The position numbers and the translations under genes were made by a program. Under the pieces are notes generated by a model. It made no database searches. It was not told where the DNA came from and saw only the letters and a list, made by a program, of their open reading frames with translations. From assembly GCF_900106535.1 (NCBI RefSeq), contig NZ_FNOH01000002.1:496001-560000 (forward strand): 64,000 bases of DNA, given 5' to 3'. Origin of the DNA: Myxococcus xanthus. GTDB taxonomy: Bacteria > Myxococcota > Myxococcia > Myxococcales > Myxococcaceae. This document shows, in pieces, positions 21,489 through 46,330 of this stretch (within the stretch, counting starts at the first letter, position 1; every line of letters starts with the position of its first letter).

Positions 21489-21503
21489 GTCGCTACGGCA
21501 AGA

Positions 21504-23391: not shown

Positions 23392-23774
23392 GGCGCCACC
23401 TCCCGAGCCGTCAGCGCGCCTTCGCGGCGCTCACCCGTCTCCGCCGCGGGCCGAGACGCCTGGGCATCCGGCGCCAGCGCACGCGCCAGCCGGGCCTGGG
23501 CCCACAGCCCCACCAACAGCGTCTGCAGGCCGAAGAAGAGGTACTCCTCCAGAGGCAGGTACCCCAGCTTGATGCCCCAGATGCGCTCGGGGTCGAAACC
23601 CCACAGGCCCCACTTCACCGCCAGGTTGTCCCAGGGCGACGTCGCCGCGTACACGACGATGAGCAGGAGCCCCATGGGCGCCAGGCTCCTGGCCGTGAAG
23701 GTGCGGCGGTAGCGCCACGCCAGGAAGAGTATGGGCACCACCACGAACAGCCCGAGGAATCGCGCGTACGTCAT
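23388..23774 (-). CDS. crtYc: lycopene cyclase subunit CrtYc
   Basis: A 128-residue partner of CrtYd. It has three predicted helices and the matching P-L-E-E-Y-L-F-F motif (residues 74-81), preceded by D-P-x-R-I-W-G-I-K-L-G-Y. The last 30 residues form a polar tail. ATG 23774 overlaps the glycosyltransferase stop by ATGA, and its own stop overlaps crtYd in the same way. CrtYc and CrtYd are similar to each other, as expected for half-size subunits. Confidence 0.93.
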   Translation of the reverse strand: MTYARFLGLFVVVPILFLAWRYRRTFTARSLAPMGLLLIVVYAATSPWDNLAVKWGLWGFDPERIWGIKLGYLPLEEYLFFGLQTLLVGLWAQARLARALAPDAQASRPAAETGERREGALTAREVAP

Positions 23775-24895
23775 CCGGGTCCTCCACTCAGCTCCGGAGC
23801 CACCCGTATCATTCGGCCCCCGGGTCGCAACACATAGGTCTGCCCCCGCCACGTCACCGTTCCCTGCCGCCACAGCGAGCGCAGGAAGGCCGCAAGCAAG
23901 AGCGCTTCGCCCAACAACCAGTCCGTCACCGCATAGGCCCTCCCCGCGTCCGCCACCGGCGCGTGGAGCCCGGCCAATCGAAGCGCCAGCAAGGTTCGCA
24001 CGGCAACCAATCCCACCACCGAGCCCGCCAACACGGGCGACCCCAGCGCCGCGGCCAGCACCGTCAGCGGCAGCGTCGGCGTGAAGAGCAGCGGCACCGT
24101 GGGATACAGCGCGGGCCGGTGACTGGCCAGTACCTGCATCCAGCGCGTGAAGCGCGACAGGGGCGCCGCCCAGAGCACCTCGGCGTCCAGGGGGACCACC
24201 GCCGGGGCGCTGCTCAGCACCACGCCCAGTCCCTGGGCGTGAAGACGCTTGGCCAGCTCCAGGTCCTCGCCGATGTGGTCCGCGAGCCGCCGCAGCGACT
24301 CCACGGCCACGGGAGACAAGCCCAAAGCCTTGCCACACACGGCCTTGGCGCCCGCGCTCATCGCATCCAGGGCCCGGAAGCTGTGGTGGGTGTAACGCAG
24401 CAGGCCCGCCATGGCCCGGCTCGCGCCGTCCCGAGGCCCTACTGGCAGCGGCGCCGCGGTGCTCAGCGCGGCGCCCGCGGCCACTGGCACGGCCAGGCCT
24501 TCCACCAGCGCGCCCGTCACCGCCACGTCCGCGTCCACCGACAGCACCACCCGGTCGCCCACGGGCAACACATCCAGCGCATAAAGCAGGTGTCCCACCT
24601 TCCGGTTGGGCGTCAGCGGCTCGCTCGGAAGCCACCGCACGCCCGGGGCGAGCCGGGGACGGTAGGGCGACACCACCACCTGCTCCAACGGCCCGGCGTA
24701 GTCGATGGACTGCGCCAGATTCTCCAGCTCTCGAGGCGTGGGCGCGTCCACCGGGCGCAGCAGCAACACTGGCGGCAGCGCGCCGGGCTGGGGAGCAGCG
24801 CCAGCCCGCGCGCGCGACAGACGCACGCACGCCACCGCGCTGAAGCCCGTGGCCACGGCGCACCACGCCAGGGACGCGAGGACGAGCGCGCTCAT
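23771..24895 (-). CDS. membrane glycosyltransferase of the carotenoid operon
   Basis: A 374-residue GT2-like protein (ORF6 of the M. xanthus operon). An N-terminal hydrophobic helix is followed by a nucleotide-sugar domain with S-V-D-A-D-V (the D-x-D metal motif near residues 125-127) and a later R-F-x-R-W-M-Q region like the Q/RxxRW motif of processive and ceramide-type transferases. Two or three C-terminal hydrophobic spans anchor it. It probably glycosylates the hydroxyl placed at C-1' by CrtC. Overlaps of ATGA at both ends show translational coupling. The donor sugar cannot be read from the sequence. Confidence 0.85.
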   Translation of the reverse strand: MSALVLASLAWCAVATGFSAVACVRLSRARAGAAPQPGALPPVLLLRPVDAPTPRELENLAQSIDYAGPLEQVVVSPYRPRLAPGVRWLPSEPLTPNRKVGHLLYALDVLPVGDRVVLSVDADVAVTGALVEGLAVPVAAGAALSTAAPLPVGPRDGASRAMAGLLRYTHHSFRALDAMSAGAKAVCGKALGLSPVAVESLRRLADHIGEDLELAKRLHAQGLGVVLSSAPAVVPLDAEVLWAAPLSRFTRWMQVLASHRPALYPTVPLLFTPTLPLTVLAAALGSPVLAGSVVGLVAVRTLLALRLAGLHAPVADAGRAYAVTDWLLGEALLLAAFLRSLWRQGTVTWRGQTYVLRPGGRMIRVAPELSGGPG

Positions 24896-25818
24896 GCCGC
24901 CCGTCCCATGCGCGTGCGGAAGTGCGCCATCCAGCGGATGAAGGGCGAGTGGAAGCGACGGAAGTCCGCCACCTCGCCCAGGGAGTCCAGAGGCCCCTGG
25001 CGCGCCTCCAGTCGTGCATAGAAAGGCGACGACTCCAGCAGCTTCGGCTGTCCCACCACCACGTTTCCCGCGTGCAGGCGTGACGGCACGCGCAGGCCCC
25101 AGCCGGTGATGTGGGTGGGCCGCGACTCCACCAACGTGGGGCCCCGTTCGCAGCGCACTCCGCGCGCGCCGGCCACCACTCGCAGCGGCGCGACACCTTC
25201 AGGCAGGTGGTAGTCCACCACCGTCTCGTCCTCGCGGTGCGTGCGAGCCCAGTGCCACCCCGACAACCGCGCGCCCAGCAGCTCTCCGCCGTGGTTGGTG
25301 TCGTGGTAGCCCAGGCCGCTCGCCTCGATGCCCAGCGAGGACACCTCCAGCCGTGCCTGCGAACGAGGCGCCAGCGCCTGCCAGTAGTGCGGCAGCCCCG
25401 GCATGAGCTGCACCACCTCGCCCACGGGCGTCATCGGCTCCAGCGTCAGGCTCGCGCGCACGGGCCGGCCCCACGGCGCCGTCCCGTCGTCCACGGCCAT
25501 CCGCACCGTGCCGTCCCCCTCGTACGACAGCGTGGAGCGACCGATGCGCAGCCGGCCCGGAGCATCCAACTCCGCGCGCGCGTACTCGCTGAGGACCCAC
25601 AGCCGCCGCACCCCCGCGTGGTACAGCGCGAAGTTCACCGCGCTGTGCTCCAGCGGCCGTCCGCCCCGCCGCGCCGCCACCGAGTACCGGGGCGAGAACA
25701 GCGAGCCCAGCATGAAGATGCACACCGCGCTGTAGGGTCCCGCGGTGACGTCCGCATAGAACCAGCGGTAGGTGCCCGCCGCGTCCGGCAGGGCGGGGAG
25801 TTTCGCCAGGCGCATCAT
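24892..25818 (-). CDS. crtC: carotenoid 1,2-hydratase (hydroxyneurosporene synthase)
   Basis: A 308-residue protein of the CrtC family, which hydrates the terminal double bond of acyclic carotenoids to give a 1-hydroxy end group. Characteristic blocks are W-F-Y-A-D-V near the start, F-M-L-G-S-L-F-S-P-R-Y and H-D-T-N-H-G-G-E-x-L. The frame stays open for 270 bases further upstream, but ATG 25818 overlaps the preceding crt stop by ATGA, follows a GGAGGGATGC ribosome region, and gives the normal family length. The product's hydroxyl is the likely attachment point for the sugar added by the next gene product. Confidence 0.92.
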   Translation of the reverse strand: MMRLAKLPALPDAAGTYRWFYADVTAGPYSAVCIFMLGSLFSPRYSVAARRGGRPLEHSAVNFALYHAGVRRLWVLSEYARAELDAPGRLRIGRSTLSYEGDGTVRMAVDDGTAPWGRPVRASLTLEPMTPVGEVVQLMPGLPHYWQALAPRSQARLEVSSLGIEASGLGYHDTNHGGELLGARLSGWHWARTHREDETVVDYHLPEGVAPLRVVAGARGVRCERGPTLVESRPTHITGWGLRVPSRLHAGNVVVGQPKLLESSPFYARLEARQGPLDSLGEVADFRRFHSPFIRWMAHFRTRMGRAA

Positions 25819-27272
25819 GCATCCCTCCGGAGGTGCTGCGAAGCCAGCTCCGCGGCGAAGCGACCGGACAACATCACCAGCGGCACGCCGCCGCCTGGAT
25901 GCGTGCCACCGCCCGCGAAGAACAGGCCCGGCGTGTTGCCGCGGATGCGCGGTCGGCGGAAGGGGCCGAACTTCCCGTGCGGCAGGAAGCCGTAGATGGA
26001 GCCGCCCGGAGCGCCCTGCGCGGCCAGGTCCACCGGCGAGCGCTGGCCGATGACACGCACGCGCCCCTTGAGCGCCGGGTAGTGCCGGCACAGGCGCTCC
26101 AGCATCTGCGCCTTCACGCGCTCGGCGCCTGCTTCCCAGTCGCGGGTGGCCTGCTCCGCGCCGCGCGCATCCACGGGCAGCGCGGGCGCGTTCACCATGA
26201 CGAACAACCCGGTGCGGCCCGGAGGCACCATGCTCTCGTCGGTGGCGGAGGGGTTGCAGAAGTACACCGTCGGGTCGGACGCGAGCTGCCCGCCGAACAG
26301 CTCGTCGAACTCGCGCCGGTAGTCACCGCCGAAGAGCACCGTGTGGTGCGGTAGAGCCATGCGGCCCTCCACCTCCAACAGCAACACGAAGCCAGACAGC
26401 GCCAGCGGCTCCTCCGCGCGAGCGAGCCGCTCCAGCGGGTCCGCGTTCACCACCACACTGTCGAAGCGCTCCGTGCCCTCCTGCGGGCCCACCTGGTAGC
26501 CCTCGCGCGTGCGCTCGAAGCGAACCCGCGTGTCCAGGTGGATGCGCATGCCCAGCCGGCGCACGGCCTGCCCCAGCGCGTCCACCAGCGCACCGATGCC
26601 GCCGCGGACGTGGTGCACGCCATAGGCATGCTCGATGTGGGGAATCAGCGCGAAGGCCGCGCTGGCCTCGTAGGGGGACGCGCCCGTGTACGTGGCGAAG
26701 CGGCCCACGTACTGCCGCAGGTGGTCCGTCTTGAAGTGCCGGGCCGCCAGCTCGTGCAGCGTGCCCATCTTCATCCCCGCCATGACGGCCCCCACGCCAC
26801 GCTTCGCCACGCGCGTCATGAAGCCCGCCATGCCCTCGAAGGGGGCCTCCAGGTATGGCTCGCCCGCGGCCCGCCAGATGGCCGCGGCCTCCGTGTAGAA
26901 GCCGCGGATGCCGTCGCGCTCACCCGGGCGGACACCCGCCGCGCTCTCCGCCATCCGCTCCACGTCCTTGTAGGCCGTGAAGTCACACCCGTCCTCGAAG
27001 CGGTAGGCACACTGCGGCTCCAGCTCCGTGAAGCGCGGCAGCAGGTCCTCGGCGCCCAGTTGCTGGAAGGTGCCACGCACCAGGTGCGGCAGCGTCAGCA
27101 ACGTGGGCCCCGTGTCCAGGGTGATGCCATTCACGATGACGGCCTGGGCCTTGCCGCCCAGCGAGGCGCCCCGCTCGAACAGCGTCACCTCATGCCCGTC
27201 CTTCGCCAACAGCCCGGCGGCCGTCAGTCCACCGATGCCGCCGCCTACCACCGCGACGCGGGTGCGCTTCAT
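25815..27272 (-). CDS. crtIa: carotenoid desaturase CrtIa/CrtD type
   Basis: A 485-residue FAD-dependent desaturase. The dinucleotide motif V-V-G-G-G-I-G-G-L opens the protein, and the C-terminal carotenoid dehydrogenase signature G-G-G-T-H-P-G-G-G-V-P near 453-463 is intact. It is the second of two phytoene-desaturase homologues in the operon. In M. xanthus the pair acts together in the steps from phytoene to more desaturated carotenoids, with CrtIa/CrtD-type enzymes acting later. There are 60 bases between the crtB stop and this start, the longest gap inside the operon. Confidence 0.93.
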   Translation of the reverse strand: MKRTRVAVVGGGIGGLTAAGLLAKDGHEVTLFERGASLGGKAQAVIVNGITLDTGPTLLTLPHLVRGTFQQLGAEDLLPRFTELEPQCAYRFEDGCDFTAYKDVERMAESAAGVRPGERDGIRGFYTEAAAIWRAAGEPYLEAPFEGMAGFMTRVAKRGVGAVMAGMKMGTLHELAARHFKTDHLRQYVGRFATYTGASPYEASAAFALIPHIEHAYGVHHVRGGIGALVDALGQAVRRLGMRIHLDTRVRFERTREGYQVGPQEGTERFDSVVVNADPLERLARAEEPLALSGFVLLLEVEGRMALPHHTVLFGGDYRREFDELFGGQLASDPTVYFCNPSATDESMVPPGRTGLFVMVNAPALPVDARGAEQATRDWEAGAERVKAQMLERLCRHYPALKGRVRVIGQRSPVDLAAQGAPGGSIYGFLPHGKFGPFRRPRIRGNTPGLFFAGGGTHPGGGVPLVMLSGRFAAELASQHLRRDA

Positions 27273-27332
27273 GCTCCACCTCCCATGCGCCGCCGAAGCT
27301 CCGTCTTCATTCCCTCGCCACGCATGACGCCC

Positions 27333-28343
27333 TCACCCTCCCGCCCCGGTGGGAAGCAGCGGCATGCGCACCTCGCCCTGGGGGGCGGGCAGCACCGCGG
27401 CGGGCCGCACCATGGCCGCGGAAGCCAGCGCGAGCTTGCGGCGCGTCGTCACGTGGGCCCGGGCGCTGAACACGTCGTAGTCGCGCGCTTCGATGTCGCG
27501 CAGGATGTCGCCGTAGATGGCGCCCATCAGCCGCACCATCCGCTGACTGCCGAAGCCCGTCAGGTAGCGCACCCCGGCCGCCGCCCGCGCGTAGTACGCC
27601 CGCGAGCGCTCCACCTGGAAGCGCATGAAGGACCGCCAGCGCGCGCCCACCTGTCCGCGCCGCAAGTCGTCCTCCGACAATCCGAAGGCGGCCAACTCCT
27701 CCGCGGGCAGGTACACCCGGCCGCGCTCCAGGTCCTCGCGCACGTCGCGGAGGATGTTGGTGAGCTGCATGGCCCGGCCCAGGTCGGCCGCGGGCTCCAC
27801 CGCCGCCGCGTCCGAGCACCCCAGCACCGGCGTCAGCATCAGCCCCACCACGCCCGCCACCCGGTAGCAGTAGAGGTCCAGCTCCTCCCAGGTGGCGTAG
27901 CGGTGCTTCGTCAGGTCCATCTCCATGCCGGAGATGAGGTCCTGGAAGGGCTGCTCCGGAATCCGGAAGTGGCGCACCGTGTGCTCGAGCGCAGCGAACT
28001 CCCGCGCGTCCCACGGCGTCGCGGCCTCGCTGCCCTTCACCCGGTCCGCGGGCGGCCCCAGCTCGCGCGAGGCCAGCTCCGGCATGGGCAGGTACAGCTC
28101 CGCCACGCGCTGCCGCGCCCGCGCCAGCCGCACCGGCAACGCATCGGCCGCGCTCGCCGCGTCGTCCCCGTCCACCATGTCGTCCAGGCGCCGGCAGAAG
28201 GCGTAGAGCGCGAACGCCGCCCTCCGGCGCAGGCCGAAGAGCAGGTACGAGGCGAAGAAGAAGCTCTTGGCGTGATGGCGCGTCACCTGCTTCGCCAGCA
28301 CATAGCCGCGCGCCACCAGCGCCTTGTCGACAGGCGGGCTCAC
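27333..28343 (-). CDS. crtB: phytoene synthase
   Basis: A 336-residue head-to-head prenyl synthase joining two geranylgeranyl diphosphates into phytoene. Both Asp-rich motifs are present: D-D-M-V-D and D-V-R-E-D-L-E-R-G-R-V-Y-L-P. The start is GTG at 28343, overlapping the crtIb stop as GTGA; the frame is open further upstream, but that stretch lies inside crtIb. The length is slightly longer than usual because of a Pro/Ala-rich tail. Confidence 0.95.
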   Translation of the reverse strand: MSPPVDKALVARGYVLAKQVTRHHAKSFFFASYLLFGLRRRAAFALYAFCRRLDDMVDGDDAASAADALPVRLARARQRVAELYLPMPELASRELGPPADRVKGSEAATPWDAREFAALEHTVRHFRIPEQPFQDLISGMEMDLTKHRYATWEELDLYCYRVAGVVGLMLTPVLGCSDAAAVEPAADLGRAMQLTNILRDVREDLERGRVYLPAEELAAFGLSEDDLRRGQVGARWRSFMRFQVERSRAYYARAAAGVRYLTGFGSQRMVRLMGAIYGDILRDIEARDYDVFSARAHVTTRRKLALASAAMVRPAAVLPAPQGEVRMPLLPTGAGG

Positions 28344-29893
28344 GCGGCCACCCCTTCCAGTGGCGTGGCGGCGGCCGTCCGAGGCGACAACGAAACGCCC
28401 TGCGCGTGGGCCCACGTCATCAGCCGCTCCGTCACCAGCCGCGCGGAGATGAGCACCGTGGGCAGCCCCGTTCCCGGCTGCGTGGAAGCACCGACGAAGA
28501 AGAGGTTCTTCACCCGCGCGTCCTGGTTGGACGGACGGAAGGGGCCAATCTGCGTGAAGTTCTGGGACAGACCGAAGGCGCTGCCACGCGCCAGGTTGAA
28601 GGTGCCGGCCCAGTCATCCGGGGTGAAGACGCGCTCCACCTCGATGTCCGACTCCAGCGACGGGAAGCCCAGCTCCGCCATGCGCGCGAAGAACTTCGCG
28701 CGCACCTTCGGCCCCTCCACCTTCCAGTCCAGGTCCGGGTGCTGGTGCGGCACGGGCACCAGCACATAGAGCGCATCCTTGCCCTCGGGCGCCAGGGACG
28801 CGTCGGTGCGCGTGGGCGCGTTGACGTAGAAGCTGGGGTCCTCTGGCACGCGGAAGCGCTCGAAGATGTCGTCGAAGGAGCCCTTGTAGTCCCGGCCGAA
28901 CACCACGTTGTGGTGCAAGAGCTCCGGGTAGCGCCGCTTCATGCCCAGATAGAGCATGTAGCCGCTGGACGTGTAGCGCAGCTTCTCCTTGCGCTTGAGC
29001 GTCGTCGCCTTCGGGTCCAGCAGCTTCTCGTACGCGTAGGGCAGGTCCGCGTTGCACAGCACCGCGTCCGCCTCCACCACCTCGCCGCCCTCCAGCCGCA
29101 CGCCTCGAGTCCGGCCGCCATCGGTGAGGATGCGCTCCACGGGCGCGCCGTAGTGGAAGCGCACACCCTCCTCGCGCGCCAGCCGCTCCAGGGCCTGGGG
29201 AATGGCATACAGGCCGCCCTTCGGGAACCAGATGCCCACACCCAGCTCGGTGAAGGGCAGCAGGCCGTACACCGCGGGCGACGCGTAGGGTGACACGCCC
29301 AGGTACATCGTCTGGAAGGTCATCGCCGCGCGCAGCCGCTCGTCCTGGAAGAAGCGGCTGACGTCCGCGTACATTCGGCGGTGAGCGCGGACCTGGAAGA
29401 TGCGCGCGAGCACGCGCGGCGAGAGGTAGTCACGCAGGCCCGCGTAGTTGCGCCCCACCAGGTGGTCCAGGCTCGTTCGATACTGGACGCGGCCCTGGGC
29501 CAGGAAGGCGAGGTAGCGCGCGTAACTGCCGGGCTCCACGCGCTCCAACTCTCGGCCCATGGCGCACAACTCTGACGTGAAGGTGACATCCGAACCGTCC
29601 CGGAAGTGGACCCGATAGTTCGGGTCGCACCTGAGCAGCGTCAGGTAGTCCTCGATGCGGCGGCCCACCGCGCGGAAGGTCTCCTCGAACACCTCCGGCA
29701 TCAGCACGATGGTGGGGCCCAGGTCCCACGTGAAGCCATCCACCTGCAATCGGTTGCAGCGCCCACCCGGTCCCTGCGTCTTCTCGAAGACCTGGACGTC
29801 GAAGCCCTGGTGCGCCAGCCGGGCAGCGGCGGCCAGCCCGCCCACGCCCGCGCCCACCACCACGATGCGCCTGCCCTGTGTCGATGCACTCAT
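28340..29893 (-). CDS. crtIb: phytoene desaturase CrtIb
   Basis: A 517-residue FAD-dependent desaturase with G-A-G-V-G-G-L-A-A-A near residue 14, followed by the Glu that binds the adenosine ribose, and the C-terminal G-A-S-T-Q-P-G-T-G-L-P signature. It removes hydrogens from phytoene stepwise. It starts 7 bases after the crtE stop. The last 30 residues form a short extension ending in Ala-rich sequence that overlaps the crtB start. Confidence 0.94.
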   Translation of the reverse strand: MSASTQGRRIVVVGAGVGGLAAAARLAHQGFDVQVFEKTQGPGGRCNRLQVDGFTWDLGPTIVLMPEVFEETFRAVGRRIEDYLTLLRCDPNYRVHFRDGSDVTFTSELCAMGRELERVEPGSYARYLAFLAQGRVQYRTSLDHLVGRNYAGLRDYLSPRVLARIFQVRAHRRMYADVSRFFQDERLRAAMTFQTMYLGVSPYASPAVYGLLPFTELGVGIWFPKGGLYAIPQALERLAREEGVRFHYGAPVERILTDGGRTRGVRLEGGEVVEADAVLCNADLPYAYEKLLDPKATTLKRKEKLRYTSSGYMLYLGMKRRYPELLHHNVVFGRDYKGSFDDIFERFRVPEDPSFYVNAPTRTDASLAPEGKDALYVLVPVPHQHPDLDWKVEGPKVRAKFFARMAELGFPSLESDIEVERVFTPDDWAGTFNLARGSAFGLSQNFTQIGPFRPSNQDARVKNLFFVGASTQPGTGLPTVLISARLVTERLMTWAHAQGVSLSPRTAAATPLEGVAA

Positions 29894-29900
29894 GGCGTCC

Positions 29901-30986
29901 TCAGGCGGCGCGGTGGGCCAGCCGGGCGATGAGCGCGTCGAGCAGCTCTCTCACACCGTTGGGATTGGGCAGCGACTGCAACGAGCGGCGGGCGGCCCTG
30001 GAGGCACGCACCACCATGCGCTCACACGCGGCCCGGCCTCCGCAGGACTCCACCAGCGCGCGGGCCCGCGCCAGCGCGGCGGCGTCCTTCTGCTCCACCG
30101 GCAGCGCCCACAGCGCCTCCAGCTCCGTGCGCTCGGCCTCGGTGGCGCGCGCGAAGGCGGCCAGCACTGGAAAGGTTCGCTTGCCTTGGAGGAAGTCGCC
30201 GTCAGCGGCCTTGCCAGCGACGTTCGAATCACCAAAAAGGCCCAGCAAATCGTCCCGAAGCTGGTAGGCAAGACCGACGTGACGGCCCACGCGCTCCAAC
30301 TCCTCCACCAAGCCGCTGCTGGCACCGCCGAGCATGGCCCCGCACACCAGCGGGGCGCAGAAGCCGTAGCGCGCCGTCTTGAGATGCGCCACGCGCAGCG
30401 TCTGGAAGAGCGTCACCTCCGCCAGCGGCGCGCGGCCCAGGTCCAGGTCCAGGTACTGCCCGGCCGCCGTGTGACGGCACACGCCCAGGTAGTACTGCAC
30501 CACGCCCGCGACGCACGTCAGCCCCGAGCCCAGCATGACCTCCAGGGCGCGCGCGAAGAGGTGGTCCCCCACCACCACGGCCAGGTCCTCGCCCGCGCGT
30601 CCTGGCGCCAGCATCCGGTGGAGGGGCGCGGCGCCCCGCCGCAGCTCCGCCTGATCCGCCACGTCGTCATGGATGAGGAGGAAGGTGTGCAGCAGCTCCA
30701 GCCCCGCGGCGAAGCGCCACAACCCGGAGGGCACCACCGCGCTCCCACGCGCCAGGCAGTGTCCGGCCATCACCAGCGCGGGGCGGAGCCGCTTGGCGGG
30801 CCGCAAGGTATACGCCCGGGCCTGCGTCAGTGCCTGTGTCCAACGAACGTCCAGGCCGGCCTCGTCGGGGAGCTCGAACAACTCCGCCAGCGAGGTCTCC
30901 ACCTCCGTCTGGACCAGTTGCAGCCAGGCCTGCTCCAGAGGAAGCAGGCCCGTCGGCGGCTGCGCATCGGGAAGCGTGAGTGCCAT
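29901..30986 (-). CDS. crtE: geranylgeranyl diphosphate synthase, first gene of the light-inducible operon
   Basis: A 361-residue trans-prenyltransferase making the C20 precursor of carotenoids. The first Asp-rich motif D107-D-V-A-D111 and the second, D-D-L-L-G, are present. The frame is open 102 bases further up, but ATG 30986 follows a CGGAGGA ribosome site 7 bases away and lies downstream of the promoter and operator, so I start it there. It heads eleven genes with gaps of 60 bases or less and seven 4-base overlaps, all probably on one transcript controlled by CarA and CarH. Confidence 0.95.
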   Translation of the reverse strand: MALTLPDAQPPTGLLPLEQAWLQLVQTEVETSLAELFELPDEAGLDVRWTQALTQARAYTLRPAKRLRPALVMAGHCLARGSAVVPSGLWRFAAGLELLHTFLLIHDDVADQAELRRGAAPLHRMLAPGRAGEDLAVVVGDHLFARALEVMLGSGLTCVAGVVQYYLGVCRHTAAGQYLDLDLGRAPLAEVTLFQTLRVAHLKTARYGFCAPLVCGAMLGGASSGLVEELERVGRHVGLAYQLRDDLLGLFGDSNVAGKAADGDFLQGKRTFPVLAAFARATEAERTELEALWALPVEQKDAAALARARALVESCGGRAACERMVVRASRAARRSLQSLPNPNGVRELLDALIARLAHRAA

Positions 30987-31024
30987 GCTTCTTTCCTCCG
31001 AAGAACCCGTTCCTTTGTTTCCTA

Positions 31025-31054
31025 GAGGTAGCGTTTGCGTCCAGAGCTTGTCAA
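31025..31054 (-). promoter_or_regulatory. promoter of the carotenoid operon (PB)
   Basis: On the minus strand a perfect TTGACA -35 box occupies 31054-31049, and 18 bases further TACCTC (31030-31025) is the best -10 candidate, a poor match to TATAAT. This fits what is known of the M. xanthus PB promoter, which uses the housekeeping sigma factor and is blocked by CarA or CarH binding over the -35 region. The crtE ATG lies 39 bases beyond the -10. Confidence 0.75.
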
Positions 31055-31064
31055 GGGTATGTCT

Positions 31065-31082
31065 AAGGTTTGCGATAACCTT
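31065..31082. promoter_or_regulatory. CarA/CarH operator palindrome
   Basis: AAGGTT-TGCGAT-AACCTT: 6-base arms, perfect, with a 6-base spacer, ending 11 bases upstream of the TTGACA -35 box. Position and sequence agree with the high-affinity operator upstream of PB described for CarA; related ACAAG elements overlap the -35 box itself. It also lies only 19 bases before the divergent gene at 31101. Confidence 0.75.
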
Positions 31083-31100
31083 GTACACAGAGGTCCCCTC

Positions 31101-34589: not shown

Positions 34590-34609
34590 GCTGCCCGGCT
34601 CAGGGCAGC
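34590..34609 (+). terminator. hairpin between convergent genes
   Basis: GCTGCCC (34590-34596) pairs perfectly with GGGCAGC (34603-34609) across a 6-base loop. It overlaps the stop codon of the minus-strand RCC1 gene. No T-run follows. Confidence 0.35.
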
Positions 34610-37600
34610 GCCACCTGCCCGGGTGACGAGCGGTGCCCCGTGGCGCCCAGGCCCAACGAGCCGTAGAGGCTGGAGCCCCAGCTCAGCACCGTGCCGTCGC
34701 GCTTCATGGCCAGGGAGAAATCCGCCCCGCCCGACACCACGGTGACGTCCGACAGCTCCCGCACGCGCAGGGGCTCCGTCCGGTTCGTGTTGTCCCCCAG
34801 CCCCAGTTGGCCGTGCGAATTGCGTCCCCACGTCCACACCGTGCCCTTGAGCGCCACGGCGAACGTGTGGCGAGCCCCCGCGCCCACGGCGGACACCGAG
34901 GACAGGTTCGGCACCGGCCGGGGCACCAGGCGCATCCGCGTGCCGCTGGCGCCGTCCCCCAGCTGACCGAACGCGTTGTCGCCCCACGTCCACACGGTGC
35001 CGTCGCCCCGCAGCGCCACCGTGTGCGTCGCGCCCGCGCGCACGTCCACCACGCCGTCCACGCCCTTCACCGCCACGCGCGAATAGCGGGTGGTGCCTGT
35101 GCCGTCTCCCAACTGGCCCGACGCGTTGTTGCCCCACGCGGACAGGGTGCCGTCCGAGTGCAGCGCTAGCGAGTAGTGGTCTCCGCCCGCCACGGCCACC
35201 ACGCCCTCCAGCCCCTCCACCCGGGTGGGCAGGGAGCGCGACTCCGCGGTGCCGTCACCCAGTTGGCCGAACGCGTTGTAGCCCCACGTCCACACCGAGC
35301 CGTCCGAGCACACCGCCAGCGCGTGGTAGCCCCCCGAGCCAATGGCCACCACATCCCCCAGCCCGGCCACCTGCACCGGCCTGGTGCGCGGAGTGGACGT
35401 GCCATCCCCGAGCTGACCGAAGCCATTGGCGCCCCACGCCCAGACGGTGCCGTCACTGAGCAGCGCCAGCGAGTGCCAGGCGCCCGAGGACACGGCCACC
35501 ACGCTCGCCAATCCATACACCGTCAAGGGCACCGCGCGTCGCGTGGTGGTGCCGTCTCCCAGTTGGCCGAACGTGTTGTCGCCCCACGTCTGCACGGTGC
35601 CGTCTGACATCTGCACCACCGCGTGCTGGCCCCAGGCGCGCACGGTGCGCACGGGCGGGCGGATTTTCGGTCCTTCGATTTTCACCGCCATCGGCGTCAG
35701 CTGCGGGCCCGTCTTCCCATCACCGAGCTGGCCGTACTCGTTGCTGCCCCAGGCGCGGGCGGTACCGTCCAGCAGCACGGCCACGGTGAACTGCTCTCCC
35801 GCGGCCACCGCCTCCACGCCTCGCAGCTCCGGCACCTGCCGGGGCCACATCCCCGTCGGCGAGGACGAGCCATCTCCCAACTGCCCCAGCGTGTTGTCGC
35901 CCCACGTCCACACCGTGCCGTCGGCGCTCAGCGCCACCACGTGGTGGGCCCCCGCAGACATGGCGCGGATGCCCTTCAAGGAGGTCACCTGATTCGGCAC
36001 GCTCCGCGCGTGGTTGGTGCCATCGCCCAACTGGCCGGACGGGTTCGTGCCCCAGGCCCACGCGGTGCCGTCGTCGCGCACCGCCACCGAGAAGGCACGT
36101 CCGGCCGCCACGGACGCCACACGCTCCAGCCCCTTCACACGCACCGGCGTCAGGCTCGGCGCGGTGCCACCATCTCCCAGTTGGCCCGAGCCATTCGCGC
36201 CCCAGGCCCACAGCGCGCCGTCCTCGCCCACCGCCAGGGCATGCGTTTCGCCCACGGCCACGGCCACCGCGTTGGAGAGGTGCTCGACGTGGGCCGGCAG
36301 GGCGCGGTCCGTGAGGGTACCGTCACCCAGTTGGCCGCTGGCGTTGCCGCCCCAACTCCACACGGAGCCATCCGCGCGCAGCGCCACCGACGCGTCTCCA
36401 CCCGCCGCCAGCGCCACCACGCCCCGAAGCCCCTCCACCAGTCCCGGCGTCACGCGCGGGGTGGTGGTGCCATCTCCCAACTGCCCCCGCGCGTTCGCGC
36501 CCCAAGCCCAGACGGTGCCGTCACACGCCAGCGCCAGCGAGTGCTGTATGCCACTGGCGACAGAGCGGACACAGGGCACGCCGGGCACGGACACCGGCCC
36601 CGTGCGGTGGGTGGAGGTGCCGTCGCCCAGTTGGCCCGAACCATTCTCGCCCCAGGCCATCACCGTGCCATCGGCGCGCACCATCAGCGTGTGCGCGCGG
36701 CCGACGGACAACCTGTCCACGCGGCCAATGCCACGCACCTGCACTGGCACGGCGCTCCAACCCGCGGCGCCCAGGCCCAACTGGCCGAAGCGGTTGTAGC
36801 CCCACCCGCGCAACGTCCCATCCGCGTGCAGCGCGAGCACGTGCAGGTGGCTGGGGTGGAGCGCCTGGATGCCAGTCAGGCCGGGGATGAGGGCGGGCCG
36901 CACGCGCGAGGTGAGCGTTCCGTCGCCGAGCTGGCCGTAACCGTTGTAGCCCCACGCGCGCACCGTGCCATCACCTTGCAACGCCATGGAGTGGGAGCGG
37001 CCACCGCTGACGGCGGTGATGCCCTGCAGTCCCGGCACCTGCACCGGACGGAAGCGGTCCGCCCAAGAGCCGTCCCCGAGCTGCCCTTCCCCATTGTCGC
37101 CCCAGGCCCACACCGTGCCGTCGCCGCGCACGGCCAGCGCATGCGCGGAGCCCGCCGCCACGCGGGTGATGTTCGCCAATCCCTCCACACGCACCGGACT
37201 CAGTCGCTGCACGCCACCGCCGTCCCCCAACTGTCCCTCGAAGCCCTCGCCCCACGTCCACACCGTGCCGTCGGACTGCAGGGCCATGGAGAAGTACGAA
37301 CCGGCTGCCACCGCCACCACCGCACCGAGCCCCGACACTCGCACCGGCGTCAACCGGTCCACCGTCGTGCCGTCCCCCAACTGTCCCAGCGCGTTGTAGC
37401 CCCAGGCCCACACGCTGCCGTCGCTGCGCAGCGCCAGGACGTGACTGCCGCCCGCGGCCACCGCCGTCACCGACGTCAGGCCCGGCACCGCCACGGGCCG
37501 GGCGCGGTCGAGCGTGGTGCCATCCCCCAACTGTCCGGCGGCGTTGCGCCCCCACGCCCAGACCGTCCCATCCATGCCCACGGCGAGCGAATGGTGGGCG

Positions 37601-38973
37601 GCCGAGGCGACGCTGCGAACGCCGCCGAGCCCCTCCACGCGCACCGCGGCGTGGCGCTCGGCGGTGCTGCCATCACCCAACTGTCCATAGGTGTTGCGGC
37701 CCCAGGCCCAGACGGAGCCATCCCCCAGCGCGGCCAGGGAGTGGAAACTGCCCGTCGCCATCGACGTCACGCCCGCCAGGCGCATCACCGGAGCGGGCAC
37801 CACGTGGCGCTCGGAGCCGCCGTGGCCCAGTTGGCCCGACAGGCCTCCGCCCCAGGCCCAGAGCGTGCCGTCTTTTCGCAGGACCAGCGCGTGCTGCGCG
37901 CCGCCCACCACCGAGGCCACCGCATTCAGCCCCGGCACCGGTCCCGGCGTGGCGCGGTCGGTGGTGTCTCCATCGCCCAGTTGGCCGGAGCCATTGGCAC
38001 CCCACGCGAACACGGCGCCCGTGTCGAGCAGCGCCAGCGAATCCGAGTCCATGGAAGCCACGGCCTTCACCCGCTCGAGCCCCGGCACCTGCATGGGTAC
38101 GGCGCGGTCATTCCAAGTGCCATCACCGAGCTGTCCGGAGGCATTGCTACCCCACGTCCACACGCCGCCGTCCTTGCCCAGCGCCAGCGCGTGGTAGGTG
38201 CCCGCCCTCACCTCGGTGATGCCGCTGAGCTCGGAGACCTTCACGGGAGACAGGCGCTGGGTGGAGGTACCGTCACCCAGTTGGCCAGAGCCGTTGGAGC
38301 CCCACGCGCGCACCGTGCCGTCCTCCAGCACGGCCAGGGTGAAGTCGAAGCCCGCGGCGAGCGCGACCACGCCATTCAACCCGGGAACCTGTTCGGGCGT
38401 GAGCCCCGGCTGCGTGTGTCCCCGGCCGAGCTGTCCGTGGAAGTTCGTCCCCCACGCCCACACCGTGCCGTCCTCGCGCAGCGCCAACGAGTGGAAGTCT
38501 CCGGCGGCCACCGCCACCACGCTGTCCAGGCCGGCCACCCGCATCGGCGTCGCGCGATCGGTGGTGGTGCCATCACCGAGCTGCCCGGAGCTGTTGCCGC
38601 CCCACGTCCACACCGAGCCATCCGCGCCCAGTGCGAGCGAGTGGGCGTCTCCGGACACCACCGACACGATGTTCTCCAGCGCCGCCAGCCGCACTGGAGC
38701 CAGTCCCTGGAGGGACGTCTCCGCCCCGCCAAGCTGGCCGGAGCCATTGCCGCCCCAGGCCCACACGTCGCCTCCGGGTGACAGATACAGCGAGTGCTGG
38801 GTACCCGCGGCGATGCGCATCGGCGGGGCCGTGACGACCACTCGCTGGGTGCGCGTGGCGTGTGGAGTCTCCGGCTTGGCGAGCGCCCCCGAGGGCTCGC
38901 AGCCAACCATCAGCAAGGCGCTCAACAGGCACGTCAACAGGCGGCGCGTTCCCGCCATCATGTCAGGGGGCAT
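34600..38973 (-). CDS. giant RCC1-repeat lipoprotein, 28 repeats
   Basis: A 1457-residue exported protein. ATG 38973 has a GAGGAGA ribosome site, unlike the upstream ATG, and opens a lipoprotein signal ending L-L-M-V-G-C. The rest is RCC1 (regulator of chromosome condensation) repeats of about 50 residues, each with a W-(A/T)-W-G strand and a G-Q-L-G-D-G turn; I count 28, the last degraded to G-S-L-G. Each RCC1 propeller needs seven repeats, so 28 would form four. A non-repeat linker (around K-I-E-G-P-K-I-R-P-P) falls exactly between repeats 21 and 22. Likely a surface binding protein; ligand unknown. Confidence 0.92.
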   Translation of the reverse strand: MPPDMMAGTRRLLTCLLSALLMVGCEPSGALAKPETPHATRTQRVVVTAPPMRIAAGTQHSLYLSPGGDVWAWGGNGSGQLGGAETSLQGLAPVRLAALENIVSVVSGDAHSLALGADGSVWTWGGNSSGQLGDGTTTDRATPMRVAGLDSVVAVAAGDFHSLALREDGTVWAWGTNFHGQLGRGHTQPGLTPEQVPGLNGVVALAAGFDFTLAVLEDGTVRAWGSNGSGQLGDGTSTQRLSPVKVSELSGITEVRAGTYHALALGKDGGVWTWGSNASGQLGDGTWNDRAVPMQVPGLERVKAVASMDSDSLALLDTGAVFAWGANGSGQLGDGDTTDRATPGPVPGLNAVASVVGGAQHALVLRKDGTLWAWGGGLSGQLGHGGSERHVVPAPVMRLAGVTSMATGSFHSLAALGDGSVWAWGRNTYGQLGDGSTAERHAAVRVEGLGGVRSVASAAHHSLAVGMDGTVWAWGRNAAGQLGDGTTLDRARPVAVPGLTSVTAVAAGGSHVLALRSDGSVWAWGYNALGQLGDGTTVDRLTPVRVSGLGAVVAVAAGSYFSMALQSDGTVWTWGEGFEGQLGDGGGVQRLSPVRVEGLANITRVAAGSAHALAVRGDGTVWAWGDNGEGQLGDGSWADRFRPVQVPGLQGITAVSGGRSHSMALQGDGTVRAWGYNGYGQLGDGTLTSRVRPALIPGLTGIQALHPSHLHVLALHADGTLRGWGYNRFGQLGLGAAGWSAVPVQVRGIGRVDRLSVGRAHTLMVRADGTVMAWGENGSGQLGDGTSTHRTGPVSVPGVPCVRSVASGIQHSLALACDGTVWAWGANARGQLGDGTTTPRVTPGLVEGLRGVVALAAGGDASVALRADGSVWSWGGNASGQLGDGTLTDRALPAHVEHLSNAVAVAVGETHALAVGEDGALWAWGANGSGQLGDGGTAPSLTPVRVKGLERVASVAAGRAFSVAVRDDGTAWAWGTNPSGQLGDGTNHARSVPNQVTSLKGIRAMSAGAHHVVALSADGTVWTWGDNTLGQLGDGSSSPTGMWPRQVPELRGVEAVAAGEQFTVAVLLDGTARAWGSNEYGQLGDGKTGPQLTPMAVKIEGPKIRPPVRTVRAWGQHAVVQMSDGTVQTWGDNTFGQLGDGTTTRRAVPLTVYGLASVVAVSSGAWHSLALLSDGTVWAWGANGFGQLGDGTSTPRTRPVQVAGLGDVVAIGSGGYHALAVCSDGSVWTWGYNAFGQLGDGTAESRSLPTRVEGLEGVVAVAGGDHYSLALHSDGTLSAWGNNASGQLGDGTGTTRYSRVAVKGVDGVVDVRAGATHTVALRGDGTVWTWGDNAFGQLGDGASGTRMRLVPRPVPNLSSVSAVGAGARHTFAVALKGTVWTWGRNSHGQLGLGDNTNRTEPLRVRELSDVTVVSGGADFSLAMKRDGTVLSWGSSLYGSLGLGATGHRSSPGQVALP

Positions 38974-39283
38974 GGGGGTCTCCTCGAGGAGGTGGTGCAT
39001 GCGCGTCAGCCAGGCGGTTCGCCGTCACACACGCGGCGCCCCTTCAGTGGCTTTCGGGCAGGCCGGTGTATACGGCCAACACGCTGTCGCTTGTATCGCG
39101 AGAACGGCGCAGTCGCTCTCTTGGCTGCATGCTGCAATCGCATGCGACGTGGGTTCGGGTCGCGATTGCCCCAGCTGCGAACACCCCGCGCGGATTGATG
39201 CGATGTCCGTGTACGCGGTGTTCACATTTCTTCACGCGGATTGCATTGCAGCGCGTCGCGCACGGGTCAGGATGGCGCACTGC
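38974..39283. other. divergent intergenic region with an 8-bp inverted repeat
   Basis: 310 bases between the divergent RCC1 lipoprotein and metallophosphoesterase genes. No convincing -35/-10 or -24/-12 pair was seen. GCAATCGC (39134-39141) and GCGATTGC (39162-39169) form a perfect inverted repeat with centres 28 bases apart, and two GCATGC palindromes lie at 39127-39132 and 39140-39145. These could be protein-binding sites. I see no small gene here. Confidence 0.3.
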
Positions 39284-41538: not shown

Positions 41539-44500
41539 CTACGGCGTCTTCGTGATGACGTTCGCCGCGCCAGGGGTGACGGTCGTGGTGAAGGAGAAGT
41601 CCGCCGCGTTCACGTCCGTGTCGGTCGAGTCCGCGTCCCGGCACAGCGAGCCCTGAGCGGTGTTGCTGTCCGCCAGGGTCTTCGTGTCCGCGTCACCCTC
41701 CCGCAGGTCGAACTTCGTGTCCGTCCCGGCGATGGTGGCGTTCACCACGTGCCCCTCGTAGGAGAGGGAGTCAATCAACGCATCCGTGGCCTCGTCGTAC
41801 AGGGCCACCGCGTCCGGCTCACCGTTCTGGATGAAGTCGGTGGTCCCCCGCTGCAGCGTGTGCACGCCGGCACGCCCCGCGAGCGGCCCGACGACGGTGG
41901 CAGCGCCCACGACCAGATACTCCCGGGGTCCCAGGACGCCGCCGTTGACTTCCGCCAAGGCAATCTTCTGGTAGCTCGACATGTTGCTGCCGTTGACGAA
42001 CACCAGGAACACGCTGCTCAGCGACGCGGGCGTAGAGGAGTTGTTGTAGATCTCCACGAACTCCAGCGAGTCACCCGCGCCGGGCATGTCGTAGTCCACC
42101 TCGTTGATGACCAGTCCGCCTTCCGCGGTCAGGATGACGGACACCTGAGCGGTCCGGTCCACCCCGCCGAAGCTCGCCGTGAGCAGCGCCTCCGCGGGGC
42201 TCGAGACCTCGTCCGCCGTGAAGGTGAAGGTCGCCGTCGTCGCATCCCGAGCCACCCGGACCGAGGCCGGAATGAGCCCGACGCCCGTCGCCGGCTCCAG
42301 CGTCAGCGCAACGTCCGTCTCGTCCGTCTGCGCCGGACGGTCCAGCGTCACCGTGAAGGTGAACGTCCGGCCCGTCAACACCGCTGCGGTGGACGGAGAC
42401 AGCGCGCTGAGCACGGGCGGAGGCGGAAGCACCGTGAGCGCGGTGGTCTGGGTGATGCCGTACAGCGAGGCGTACACCGTGCCCGTGCCCTCGCCCTGCG
42501 CGTCCGCCGTGAAGGTGAAGGTCACCTCCGTGGCGCCCGCCGGAATCGTGGCCGAGGCCGGCACCGTGCCGTAGTTCTGCACGCCCGCCCCCGGCACCAC
42601 CGCCAGCTCAACAACCGTGTCCTGCGCGGCCGCACGGTCCACCGTCAGGGTGAACGTCTGCGTCCCGCCCGCCGGAATCGTCACCGCCGAGGACGGCGAC
42701 AGGGCCGTCAGCCGCGGCGCATTCTGGTCCAGCGTCACAGTGGCGCTCGCGCTGGTCGCACCGATGCTCGCCGTCACCGTGCCGGGCTCGGTGGCCGTGG
42801 CCGCCGCGTCCGTGATGAAGGAGAACACGGCCTCCGTGGCGTTCTCCGTCACGGTGAGCGTGCCGTTCGCCGGAACGAAGGTGCCGAAGCCCGTCGCCGG
42901 ATTCACGCTCAGCGCCACAGTGGCGTTGGCGGGCGCCGGACGGTCCAGTTGCACGGTGAAGACCACCTCGCCGCCGGGCACCATCGTCACGTCACCCGGG
43001 GTGACGCCTACCACCTCGGGCTGCTCGTCGGCACCCAGCACCCGGATGGTGGCCGTCTGCGTGGAGCCGCCCAGCGTGGCCGTCAGCGTCACGCTCTGCG
43101 CGGGCGCCACCGCGTTCACCTGCACCGTCGCGGACGTCTGACCCGCGGGGATGGTGATGCGGCCGTCCTGCACGCTCAGCGCGCTCTCGTTGGAGGAGGT
43201 GATGACGACGTCGAGCGCCTCCGCGTAGGCGGACGACAGCGACAGCGTCAGCGCCTGCGGGAAGGTGTTCACCGGGCCCGTGCCACCCACGCGCGCATAG
43301 CCGTCCGGACCAAAGCCCGTCAGCGACGGCGGCGGCAGCGGCATGTCCGCCTGGAAGCGCGGCACCAGCTTGGAGTCATTGAAGTTGTACGTCAGCACGC
43401 CGCGCAGCGCGCCGAAGCGCGTGCCAATGGACGGGACCTGGAAGGCATAGGCCTGGTCGTCAATCATCAGACCCGGCTGACCGGCGTCACCCGCCTCGTT
43501 CACCAGGAACTGGCCGAACTCGTCCACCCCCGTGTTGACCGCCACGTCGCGGACCTCCACGAGCACACCTTCCAGCGCGGCGGCACGCGGGCCCCCGGTG
43601 CGAATGTCGGCCGTCGTCACCACCACCGGCGCGGGAACCTCGTTGCCGGAGCTGCGCTTGACGTACTTGACCTCGGTCAGCTCGGGCAGGCCGAAGTAGA
43701 CGGTCAGCACGCCCGTGGTGATGTCGATGCGATCACCCGCGGCGAGGTCGCCCTTGGGCGAGTACACATAGAGACCGGAGTTATCCACGCTCGTGCCCGA
43801 AGGCAGCGGATACGTCTGCACCCAGTAGCCCTGGGAGCTCGCGCCGCCCTTCACCACACCGGTGACGACGACGTCCAGGATGGACACCGGCTTGCCCACC
43901 AGCGGCAGGCTGCCGCCCACGGGCGTCTTCAGCTCGTGAATGGTGGCGGGGCAGCCCAGGTCGCCCGGATTCGGAACGCTGGAGCACGCGTCACACGCAT
44001 CACCCTTGCCGTCGCCGTCCGCGTCCGCCTGGTCCGGGTTGGCAACGAACGGGCAGTTGTCCAGCCACGTCACGATGCCGTCGTGGTCATCGTCGCCCAC
44101 GGTGAACGACGTGCAGGCGTTACCCGCCTCCAGCGGGCAGGGGTCGCACGCGTCGCCAATCCCGTCGCCATCCGAGTCCGCCTGCTTGCCATTGTCCATG
44201 GGGCGGATGGGGTTGAAGATGGCAGGGCAGTTGTCGACGGAGTCCACCAGCCCGTCCCCGTCCTTGTCCGCGGCGCGAACCTCACCGGTGTAGCTGGTGG
44301 AGCTGTTCACGACGGCCGGCCAGCGCGAGTCCAGCGAGGCACGGCGGGGCGAGCACGTCGGCTCGTTCTCCGGCGTACCGCACGCGAACAGCGGGTACTT
44401 CGCCGTGGCGCCCGACGTCAGCGCCTCCAGGTTCTTGCCAATCTCGGACTGGAGGCAGACTTCCTTCGAGGCGCCGCACACGTCCAGCGTGTCGCAGGTG

Positions 44501-46035
44501 TCCGCGCCGCGGAGCCCGGCCATCAGCGCCTGGTCACCGTAGAGCGCCTTGCCACCCCGCATCGTGAGCACCACGTGCTCGGGGTTCGAGGTGATGACCG
44601 CGCGGTGCGGCGAGCGGGTGAAGGTCCGCAGCTGGAAGATGGCCAGGTCGGCCACCTTGCCCTCGGCGATGCGGCCCGTCTTCTCGAACGTGTCCACCAG
44701 GTCCGACGCGTTCGACGTCACCATGCGCCAGAGGTCCTCGTCGCTGAAGGTCCGCGCGTAGTGCGAGGTGTTGAGGTAGTCCGCGCACTGGAGCTCGCGC
44801 AGCAGGTTCATGGAGCCGGAGCGCAGCCAGTCGGTGCCCAGCGCGATGGTGACACCCTGGTTCTTGTAGGCCGACACCATGGCCGTATCGCCGTACAGCG
44901 AGATGTTCGAGCGGGGCGACCAGATAAGGCCGGTGCCGTTCTCCGCCATGACGCGAATCTCCTTCGCCGTCAGGCCGATGCCGTGGATGACGGCGGTGCG
45001 CGGCTGCATCACGTTGTTCGTGCCCGTGGACAGGCAGAGGAACTCGTTGAGCGCCGCCGCGGAGATACCCTCGGAGACGTGCGGCAGGTACGCGGCCGAG
45101 CGCGGCAGCGAGCTCGTGGACGGCATCGAGGTGTAGGTACAGCCCGAGGCAACCATGTTGCCATTGGTGTCGCCCAGCGGGAACGTGTCCGAGTTCACCA
45201 CACCCTCGCCCAGGCCCTCCTGGAGCGCGGTGTTGTTCACGTCCACGTTGCGCAGCAGGCCAGCCTGGCCACCCGCGCCCGCCATGGAGGTGGCGCCCGC
45301 CATCATCTGCCGCAGCTCGCCCCAGCGAACGTTGTCCGCGGCGCTGGCCGCGGGGCTGTTGATGCGCGTGTGGCCGTTGCGGCCCGTGCGCCACTCGTGG
45401 CGGTGCTCGTAGCGCTCCTCGGTGCCGACGTACGGCTCCATCGGATACGTGATGTGCTCGTGCGGATTCACCAGGCCCGGGGAGATGACACCACCGGGGC
45501 AGGACACCTGCGTGGCATCGGCGGCGCCCGCCGCGGCGGAGCAGTCACAGGCGGCGCACTGGATGATGCCCTGCGCGTCCACCAGCACCTGGCCGCCCAC
45601 CAGCGTCTCGCCGTCCTTCAGCACCACGCCCGTGAAGAGGCGCGCGGCGGAGCCCGGCTGCGTCACCGCGCAGGTGGCCCCGTCGGGAAGCGCGGGCGCG
45701 TTGGCCGCGGGGCATAGGGTCAGCGTCGGCGTGCAGTCCGCCTGACAGCCATCACCGTCCACCGTGTTGCCGTCGTCACAGACCTCTTCGCCTTCCAGCT
45801 TGCCGTTGCCACATACCGCGGCCGGCGCGGGCGTCCGCGTACAGTCGGACTCACAGCCGTCGCCGTCCACCTTGTTGCCGTCGTCGCACTGCTCGCCCTG
45901 CTCCACGGTGTTGTTGCCGCAGACCGCTTGCGGGTTGCAGCTCGCACCCTCACAGCCAGGCTCGTCGCCGCATCCGGCGTGGAAGAGGAGGACCGCGCCT
46001 AGCGCGGCGAGTAATAAACGTGGGGACATTCGCAT
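41539..46035 (-). CDS. multidomain surface lipoprotein: amidohydrolase, TSP3 repeats, Ig-like repeats, lamin-tail domain
   Basis: A 1498-residue lipoprotein. ATG 46035 has GGGAGA 8 bases upstream and opens a signal ending F-H-A-G-C. Next come two Cys-rich DUF4215-type repeats (G-x-x-C-D-D-G-N-x-x-x-G-D-G-C). An amidohydrolase domain of the cytosine-deaminase/SsnA branch follows (N-P-H-E-H, V-I-H-G-I-G, L-G-T-D-W). Then come calcium-binding thrombospondin type 3 repeats (D-x-D-G-D-G-x-x-D), a domain of the DUF5689/nucleic-acid-binding type, about four Ig/Calx-beta-like repeats of around 90 residues, and a C-terminal lamin-tail domain (I-N-E-V-D-Y-D). An enzyme tied to adhesive domains on the cell surface is likely; substrate unknown. 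Confidence 0.9.
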   Translation of the reverse strand: MRMSPRLLLAALGAVLLFHAGCGDEPGCEGASCNPQAVCGNNTVEQGEQCDDGNKVDGDGCESDCTRTPAPAAVCGNGKLEGEEVCDDGNTVDGDGCQADCTPTLTLCPAANAPALPDGATCAVTQPGSAARLFTGVVLKDGETLVGGQVLVDAQGIIQCAACDCSAAAGAADATQVSCPGGVISPGLVNPHEHITYPMEPYVGTEERYEHRHEWRTGRNGHTRINSPAASAADNVRWGELRQMMAGATSMAGAGGQAGLLRNVDVNNTALQEGLGEGVVNSDTFPLGDTNGNMVASGCTYTSMPSTSSLPRSAAYLPHVSEGISAAALNEFLCLSTGTNNVMQPRTAVIHGIGLTAKEIRVMAENGTGLIWSPRSNISLYGDTAMVSAYKNQGVTIALGTDWLRSGSMNLLRELQCADYLNTSHYARTFSDEDLWRMVTSNASDLVDTFEKTGRIAEGKVADLAIFQLRTFTRSPHRAVITSNPEHVVLTMRGGKALYGDQALMAGLRGADTCDTLDVCGASKEVCLQSEIGKNLEALTSGATAKYPLFACGTPENEPTCSPRRASLDSRWPAVVNSSTSYTGEVRAADKDGDGLVDSVDNCPAIFNPIRPMDNGKQADSDGDGIGDACDPCPLEAGNACTSFTVGDDDHDGIVTWLDNCPFVANPDQADADGDGKGDACDACSSVPNPGDLGCPATIHELKTPVGGSLPLVGKPVSILDVVVTGVVKGGASSQGYWVQTYPLPSGTSVDNSGLYVYSPKGDLAAGDRIDITTGVLTVYFGLPELTEVKYVKRSSGNEVPAPVVVTTADIRTGGPRAAALEGVLVEVRDVAVNTGVDEFGQFLVNEAGDAGQPGLMIDDQAYAFQVPSIGTRFGALRGVLTYNFNDSKLVPRFQADMPLPPPSLTGFGPDGYARVGGTGPVNTFPQALTLSLSSAYAEALDVVITSSNESALSVQDGRITIPAGQTSATVQVNAVAPAQSVTLTATLGGSTQTATIRVLGADEQPEVVGVTPGDVTMVPGGEVVFTVQLDRPAPANATVALSVNPATGFGTFVPANGTLTVTENATEAVFSFITDAAATATEPGTVTASIGATSASATVTLDQNAPRLTALSPSSAVTIPAGGTQTFTLTVDRAAAQDTVVELAVVPGAGVQNYGTVPASATIPAGATEVTFTFTADAQGEGTGTVYASLYGITQTTALTVLPPPPVLSALSPSTAAVLTGRTFTFTVTLDRPAQTDETDVALTLEPATGVGLIPASVRVARDATTATFTFTADEVSSPAEALLTASFGGVDRTAQVSVILTAEGGLVINEVDYDMPGAGDSLEFVEIYNNSSTPASLSSVFLVFVNGSNMSSYQKIALAEVNGGVLGPREYLVVGAATVVGPLAGRAGVHTLQRGTTDFIQNGEPDAVALYDEATDALIDSLSYEGHVVNATIAGTDTKFDLREGDADTKTLADSNTAQGSLCRDADSTDTDVNAADFSFTTTVTPGAANVITKTP

Positions 46036-46082
46036 CTCGTGGGTCTCCCGGCGGAGCCGGCCGGAGGGAAGGTGGCAGGTCC

Positions 46083-46099
46083 TTGGCACGCGAAGAGCG
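46083..46099 (+). promoter_or_regulatory. possible sigma54-type promoter
   Basis: TTGGCACG at 46083-46090 is a perfect -24 element and the GC of the -12 element follows at the correct spacing, but the -12 block reads GAGCG instead of TTGCA/T. It points toward the ATP-grasp gene, whose ATG lies about 220 bases past the predicted start. None of the GGCAA-N3-TTGCC sites is near it. Confidence 0.35.
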
Positions 46100-46330
46100 T
46101 ACCCCTTGAAACATTTCAGCGACACCTGACCGCACAGGTCCAGTTCCCAAGCGTCCGCGCTCGCGAATGTGCCGTGGAGTACGCCGCTCACCTCACCTCA
46201 AGTACGGGGTGTTCAACGCCTACCTGTCGGACTGGCCCGCACCCTGCTCTTGACGCACCGCGAGAGCCCTGCGCGCAGGTGCCGCACGCGCTACAAGCCG
46301 CTGCACGTTTCAACACCGGGAGCCCGCGTC

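Follow-up and report, generated by a model that had tools for sequence, protein, structure and literature searches.

The 64,000-nucleotide stretch of Myxococcus xanthus DNA analysed here (the window; contig NZ_FNOH01000002.1, positions 496,001 to 560,000) contains a gene that probably encodes a secreted, lipid-anchored RCC1 protein of four rings (blades 1-7, 8-14, 15-21 and 22-28), orthologous to MXAN_0889, that would act as a multivalent scaffold on the cell surface and on vesicles; we assign this reading a probability of roughly 0.7. It is not obvious how a repeat protein that closes into rings could count its repeats, and a nearly gapless array of 28 blades, found throughout a genus, belonging to a family quantised in sevens and having marked ring ends, offers a natural test of what fixes ring register and maintains it. 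It also supplies a concrete architecture for a protein found specifically in the vesicles of a predatory bacterium.

The longest open reading frame spans 34600-39000 on the reverse strand from its first ATG, but the downstream ATG at 38973, which is preceded by GAGGAG, is likely to be the true start (Table 1). The protein has the N-terminal signal and lipobox (LMVGC) by which bacterial lipoproteins are recognized, so that its earlier description as a lipoprotein is upheld. Of the 27 ortholog loci, 26 show the lipobox pattern, and the remaining one is truncated at the 5' end. Both Pfam profiles of the family were exceeded well beyond their curated cut-offs: RCC1 scored 1022.8 bits over 27 stretches (cut-off 21.7) and WD40_RLD 1464.3 bits over 7 stretches (cut-off 150), and because the RCC1 score is so high, the repeats are not a chance resemblance. 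The Pfam scan of the protein returned RCC1-type domains only, with nothing outside the rings; NCBIfam gave no match to it, and promoter and terminator scans found nothing.

By sequence, the nearest solved chains are UVR8 and the RLDs of HERC proteins, with phmmer E-values running from 2.3e-55 (UVR8) to about 5e-32 (RCC1). The GW[RKS]H[TS] motif, a mark of UVR8, was not found in the window protein. The family name, and the presence of RCC1 chains among these matches, might suggest a guanine-nucleotide exchange factor for a small GTPase, as RCC1 is; however, UVR8 and HERC chains outscore RCC1, and the lipobox together with the vesicle location of the ortholog (see below) place the protein outside the cytoplasm, making such a role highly improbable.

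Table 1. Features of the 28-blade gene (positions in the window; residues of the 1466-residue form)
Feature	Position	Strand	Basis or remark
28-blade RCC1 lipoprotein gene	34600..38973	(-)	likelier start ATG 38973
Lipoprotein signal peptide ending in lipobox LMVG/C	38899..38973	(-)	sequence and ortholog loci
Ring 1, blades 1-7	37780..38832	(-)	residues 57-407; spacing and ring-end marks
Ring 2, blades 8-14	36730..37779	(-)	residues 408-757; spacing, ring-end marks and ring-duplication test
Ring 3, blades 15-21, with first part of short linker	35662..36729	(-)	residues 758-1113
Short Lys/Pro-containing linker at the 21/22 junction	35653..35682	(-)	5 residues over the usual spacing
Ring 4, blades 22-28	34603..35661	(-)	residues 1114-1466; ring-end marks; UVR8 chain (15-380) placed by VIA-align on residues 1115-1466 (low-confidence model)

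The array comprises 28 blades: 27 have a GQLG turn and one, the last (residue 1447), has the degraded form GSLG, and 28 first halves of the 'AAGxxHSLAL' type match the 28 turns. The sequence-only reading had arrived at the same tally, 27 turns plus one degraded repeat, and had made its layout depend on a total divisible by seven, which 28 (4 x 7) is. Pairwise identity among blades averages 0.47 (range 0.26-0.64), and the array starts on a first half-blade and finishes on a last half-blade. Spacing is usually 50 residues, with one extra residue at blades 1 and 20, five at blade 21 and two at blade 26; counted at the ring junctions, the extra residues are 0 at 7/8, 0 at 14/15 and 5 at 21/22. The Lys/Pro linker, once taken to be the only interruption of the repeat pattern, is therefore the largest interruption but not the sole one, since blades 1, 20 and 26 deviate as well.

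Identity between blades was highest at lag 7 (z 4.05), a value reached in 0 of 5000 shuffles, and in this protein lag 7 exceeded lag 1. Pooling all multiples of seven gave z 3.78 (p 0.0005), with lags 14 and 21 not significant when the blade identities of the query were taken singly at each. The signal was also present across 25 orthologs, the window protein included, after correction for blade divergence (z 3.6; the incomplete loci L104 and L124 were dropped), and the lag-7 excess remained when ring-end blades were removed (z 3.03, p 0.0015). Whether seven-repeat blocks were duplicated as units had been raised earlier as a point to check, and the idea finds support in part of the array: whole-ring duplication is supported for rings 1 and 2, whose in-register match gives an inner-blade rank p of 0.008, and marginally so for rings 3 and 4 (p 0.05), but the remaining four ring pairs showed no in-register match by inner-blade rank.

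The assignment of blades to rings draws on marks left at ring ends in other arrays. We assembled gapless arrays of 14, 21 or 28 blades, i.e., those with no gaps of at least 110 residues, and reduced 92 of these to 71 that were non-redundant. Within this set, the greatest divergence from the consensus among internal blades is at ring positions 7 and 1 (summed squared z of 592 and 431, vs. 68-179 for the rest), and the spacing after each seventh blade is non-modal in 52% of cases, compared with 20-37% elsewhere. A ring-end profile recovered the phase in 47 of the 71 arrays when these were held out (chance is 1 in 7) and missed it in 24. For the query, the profile was trained without its orthologs and two other loci, L132 and L133, although some Myxococcaceae paralogs were retained, and phase 0 won at -45.6 vs. 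-74.4 for the next of the seven phases, with boundaries at 7/8, 14/15 and 21/22. Blades 1, 7, 21 and 22 were individually called as ring ends, correctly, and blades 8, 14, 15 and 28 were not so called by the profile; hence, 7/8 and 21/22 are better marked than 14/15. Departures from the consensus at ring ends could set where each ring closes.

Because the count is 28, blade identity peaks at lag 7, the family is quantised in sevens (see below) and ring-end marks fall at 7/8, 14/15 and 21/22, a division into four rings of seven blades is well supported by sequence. The protein would then consist of four RCC1-type beta-propellers in a row, with extra linker residues (five) at the third junction only. 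Of the 3 x 7 + 7 layout suggested at first, the phase stands, being the best of seven, but the idea that three rings are fused and one is set apart is weak, relying as it does on the five extra residues at 21/22; the higher dN/dS of ring 4, described below, is a point in its favour.

An alternative is that the rings close in another register, for instance with a shift of one blade from ring 3 onward, or with closure set by the chain ends or the order of folding. Such a register would accommodate the best fit of ring 3 to rings 1 and 2, which comes at an offset of +1 blade, but it runs against the ring-end marks, which favour phase 0, and against an array that begins with a first half-blade and ends with a last half. 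Structure models bear on both sides of this question. AlphaFold2 was applied to residues 308-1466 (blades 6-28) and 34-1162 (blades 1-22), with four orthologs each, and confidence was low (mean pLDDT 51 and 58, respectively; pTM 0.40). When the chain starts before blade 1, per-blade pLDDT dips at 7/8 and 14/15, and its mean is lowest at the phase 0 boundaries (47.4 vs. 61.5); with blade 6 as the start of the chain, the dips are at blades 6-8, 16-17 and 21-22, not at 14-15, and those at 16-17 would suit the shifted register. Similarly, VIA-align places UVR8 on residues 1115-1466, i.e., blades 22-28, of the low-confidence blades 6-28 model, but in the blades 1-22 model, also of low confidence, it places UVR8 on roughly blades 16-22, a shift of one blade. 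Considering all of these points, we judge a register other than phase 0 to be unlikely.

In the same low-confidence models, VIA-align matched HERC2 RLD2 with Z 20.4 for blades 1-22 (rmsd 5.0, 283 aligned) and Z 18.3 for blades 6-28 (rmsd 3.7, 292 aligned), and Foldseek ranked UVR8 first with TM-scores that were modest (0.49 and 0.63, relative to the target, in the top rows). Structure prediction, which had been recommended as a check, is too uncertain at these pLDDT values to show four rings or to fix their partition, and given the low confidence and modest TM-scores we discarded AlphaFold2 and Foldseek as proof of four rings. The models, which disagree on ring 3, may serve as hints only.

The 28-blade array is conserved throughout the genus. 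Matches occurred in every one of the 27 genomes of the genus, counting the window's own, at 61-100% identity, and the top match in the other 34 genomes of the same search was 52% over 634 residues. All 25 of the complete ortholog loci align blade for blade with the 28. Of the other two, L124 is cut, and L104, cut at its 5' end, lacks one 50-residue blade and has 27; the same single blade (blade 24) is missing from L023 (1-4217), which matches a draft record of Myxococcus vastator AM301. This 27-blade draft gene may reflect either a deletion or an assembly collapse. A neighbouring metallophosphoesterase gene is retained at 25 of the 27 loci, the other two being cut on that side. Values of dN/dS from 0.06 to 0.58 indicate purifying selection in all four rings; in each of five comparisons it was strongest on ring 2 and weakest on ring 4. 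Apart from the 28-blade gene, the window's own genome yielded a single RCC1 gene (L128, 1870-3897, reverse strand), with 7 blades that end a 676-residue frame.

The gene adjoins a carotenoid cluster (20589-31088, reverse strand) that includes two adjacent MerR-B12 regulators along with phytoene synthase-like, amine-oxidase-type and polyprenyl synthase genes. Thirteen genes, two of which (in 23000-23790) we take to be CrtYc/CrtYd-like, separate it from the nearer regulator, which is consequently the 14th gene on. CarA is MXAN_0903 and has an adjacent duplicate, MXAN_0904 (PMC3532121), and the carotenoid cluster is given as MXAN_0889-0906 (PMC4902038). The 28-blade gene is therefore MXAN_0889, and the other flank fits: two genes lie between it and an amidohydrolase, and MXAN_0886 is a metal-dependent amidohydrolase listed as vesicle-enriched in a published vesicle table (PMC4158809). 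That neighbour (41539-46191, reverse strand), by gene order the MXAN_0886 ortholog, encodes a large amidohydrolase-like protein with Cys-rich repeats and thrombospondin type 3 and lamin-tail domains. By gene order, then, the 28-blade gene is the ortholog of M. xanthus DK1622 MXAN_0889.

MXAN_0889, annotated as an RCC1 repeat domain protein, was classed by mass spectrometry as specific to outer membrane vesicles, being detected in vesicles but not in membranes (PMC4158809). It is matched to the window protein by gene order, and the published passages on it give neither a blade count nor a ring partition. Export and the lipid anchor would bring the protein to the cell surface and to outer membrane vesicles, as suggested by the lipobox and this one proteome study, and four closed rings could there form a stiff, multivalent scaffold for binding proteins or glycans, perhaps in contact with prey, kin or matrix.

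The protein might instead be a secreted propeller that inhibits an enzyme, e.g., a beta-lactamase or protease, in the manner of BLIP-II, which belongs to the same RCC1/BLIP-II group (PMC9218822) and which VIA-align, using a low-confidence model, matched to the region of the last ring (Z 15.8, rmsd 3.4, 242 aligned). But UVR8, HERC and RCC1 give similar Z, so the match shows the fold only, and four rings seem more than an inhibitor needs; we regard inhibition as improbable and consider a rigid, multivalent binder of proteins or glycans to be the most likely job of this protein.

Quantisation in sevens extends to other bacterial RCC1 genes, as counted with a single HMM built for this analysis, which may miss or over-call weak blades. 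Among 77 loci from more than one phylum, drawn from the 80 of 246 that best matched this query and so neither random nor free of related rows, 59 of 70 complete open reading frames had a multiple of seven blades; leaving out query orthologs gave 55 of 66, and restricting those 66 further to single gapless blocks gave 45 of 53. The 11 exceptions had 12 (one), 13 (three), 15 (three), 16 (one), 17 (one) or 18 (two) blades. In a second, also non-random set of 40 regions hand-picked from same-genus and same-family genomes among the matches listed, 45 of 46 Myxococcaceae frames were multiples of seven, with 7 (4), 14 (19), 21 (20) or 28 (2) blades, and none of these 45 has linkers separating its rings; the sole exception, L141, has 15 blades arranged as 1 + 14. 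Five loci on contigs labelled Clostridia or Peptococcaceae (L078, L086, L087, L092 and L093) have open frames of 4,276-6,798 residues with 53-81 RCC1 blades; these are grouped, for the most part by sevens, into blocks that longer spacings separate.

We lean toward a counting rule under which linkerless bacterial RCC1 arrays would have 7, 14, 21 or 28 blades, with boundaries written as departures from the consensus at ring positions 7 and 1, and would be kept in whole rings only. If this rule is true, the Myxococcus protein shows the largest gapless size seen here. No description of such a rule was found in the limited collection of papers searched. Multi-ring RCC1 arrays may already have been described by Stevens and Paoli in 2008.

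How such arrays grow may differ from case to case. Two observations speak against whole-ring duplication as their general origin: in pooled arrays lag 1 exceeds lag 7 (Stouffer 10.2 vs. 6.7, 56 arrays), and the number of in-register best matches among 116 ring pairs of the 71 arrays drops from 40 to 24 (p 0.038) when ring-end blades are removed. Growth by single blades followed by selection would, from these same observations, be an equally plausible origin for most arrays. Common descent with other 28-blade arrays was also rejected: L132 (G033) and L133 (G009) have no strong blade-for-blade register with the query, and 28 blades may for this reason have evolved more than once.

UVR8, the RLDs of HERC2 and HERC1, and RCC1 are likewise RCC1-type seven-bladed propellers, but these best-matched solved chains are single propellers of about 370-420 residues, whereas the window protein has 28 blades. 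In highly repetitive beta-propellers, blade numbers are described as forming a continuum that peaks at certain values (7 and 14 for WD40), with amplification mainly from single blades (Pereira and Lupas 2022, PMC9218822). The present array resembles those in having more blades than one ring through amplification of repeats; it differs from the propellers described there in that RCC1 counts are quantised in sevens and that, in the window protein, lag 7 exceeds lag 1. Quantised counts and marked ring ends therefore contrast with the continuum reported for recently amplified propellers, and the window protein joins the RCC1-like propeller family as a member of unusual size and nearly gapless form.
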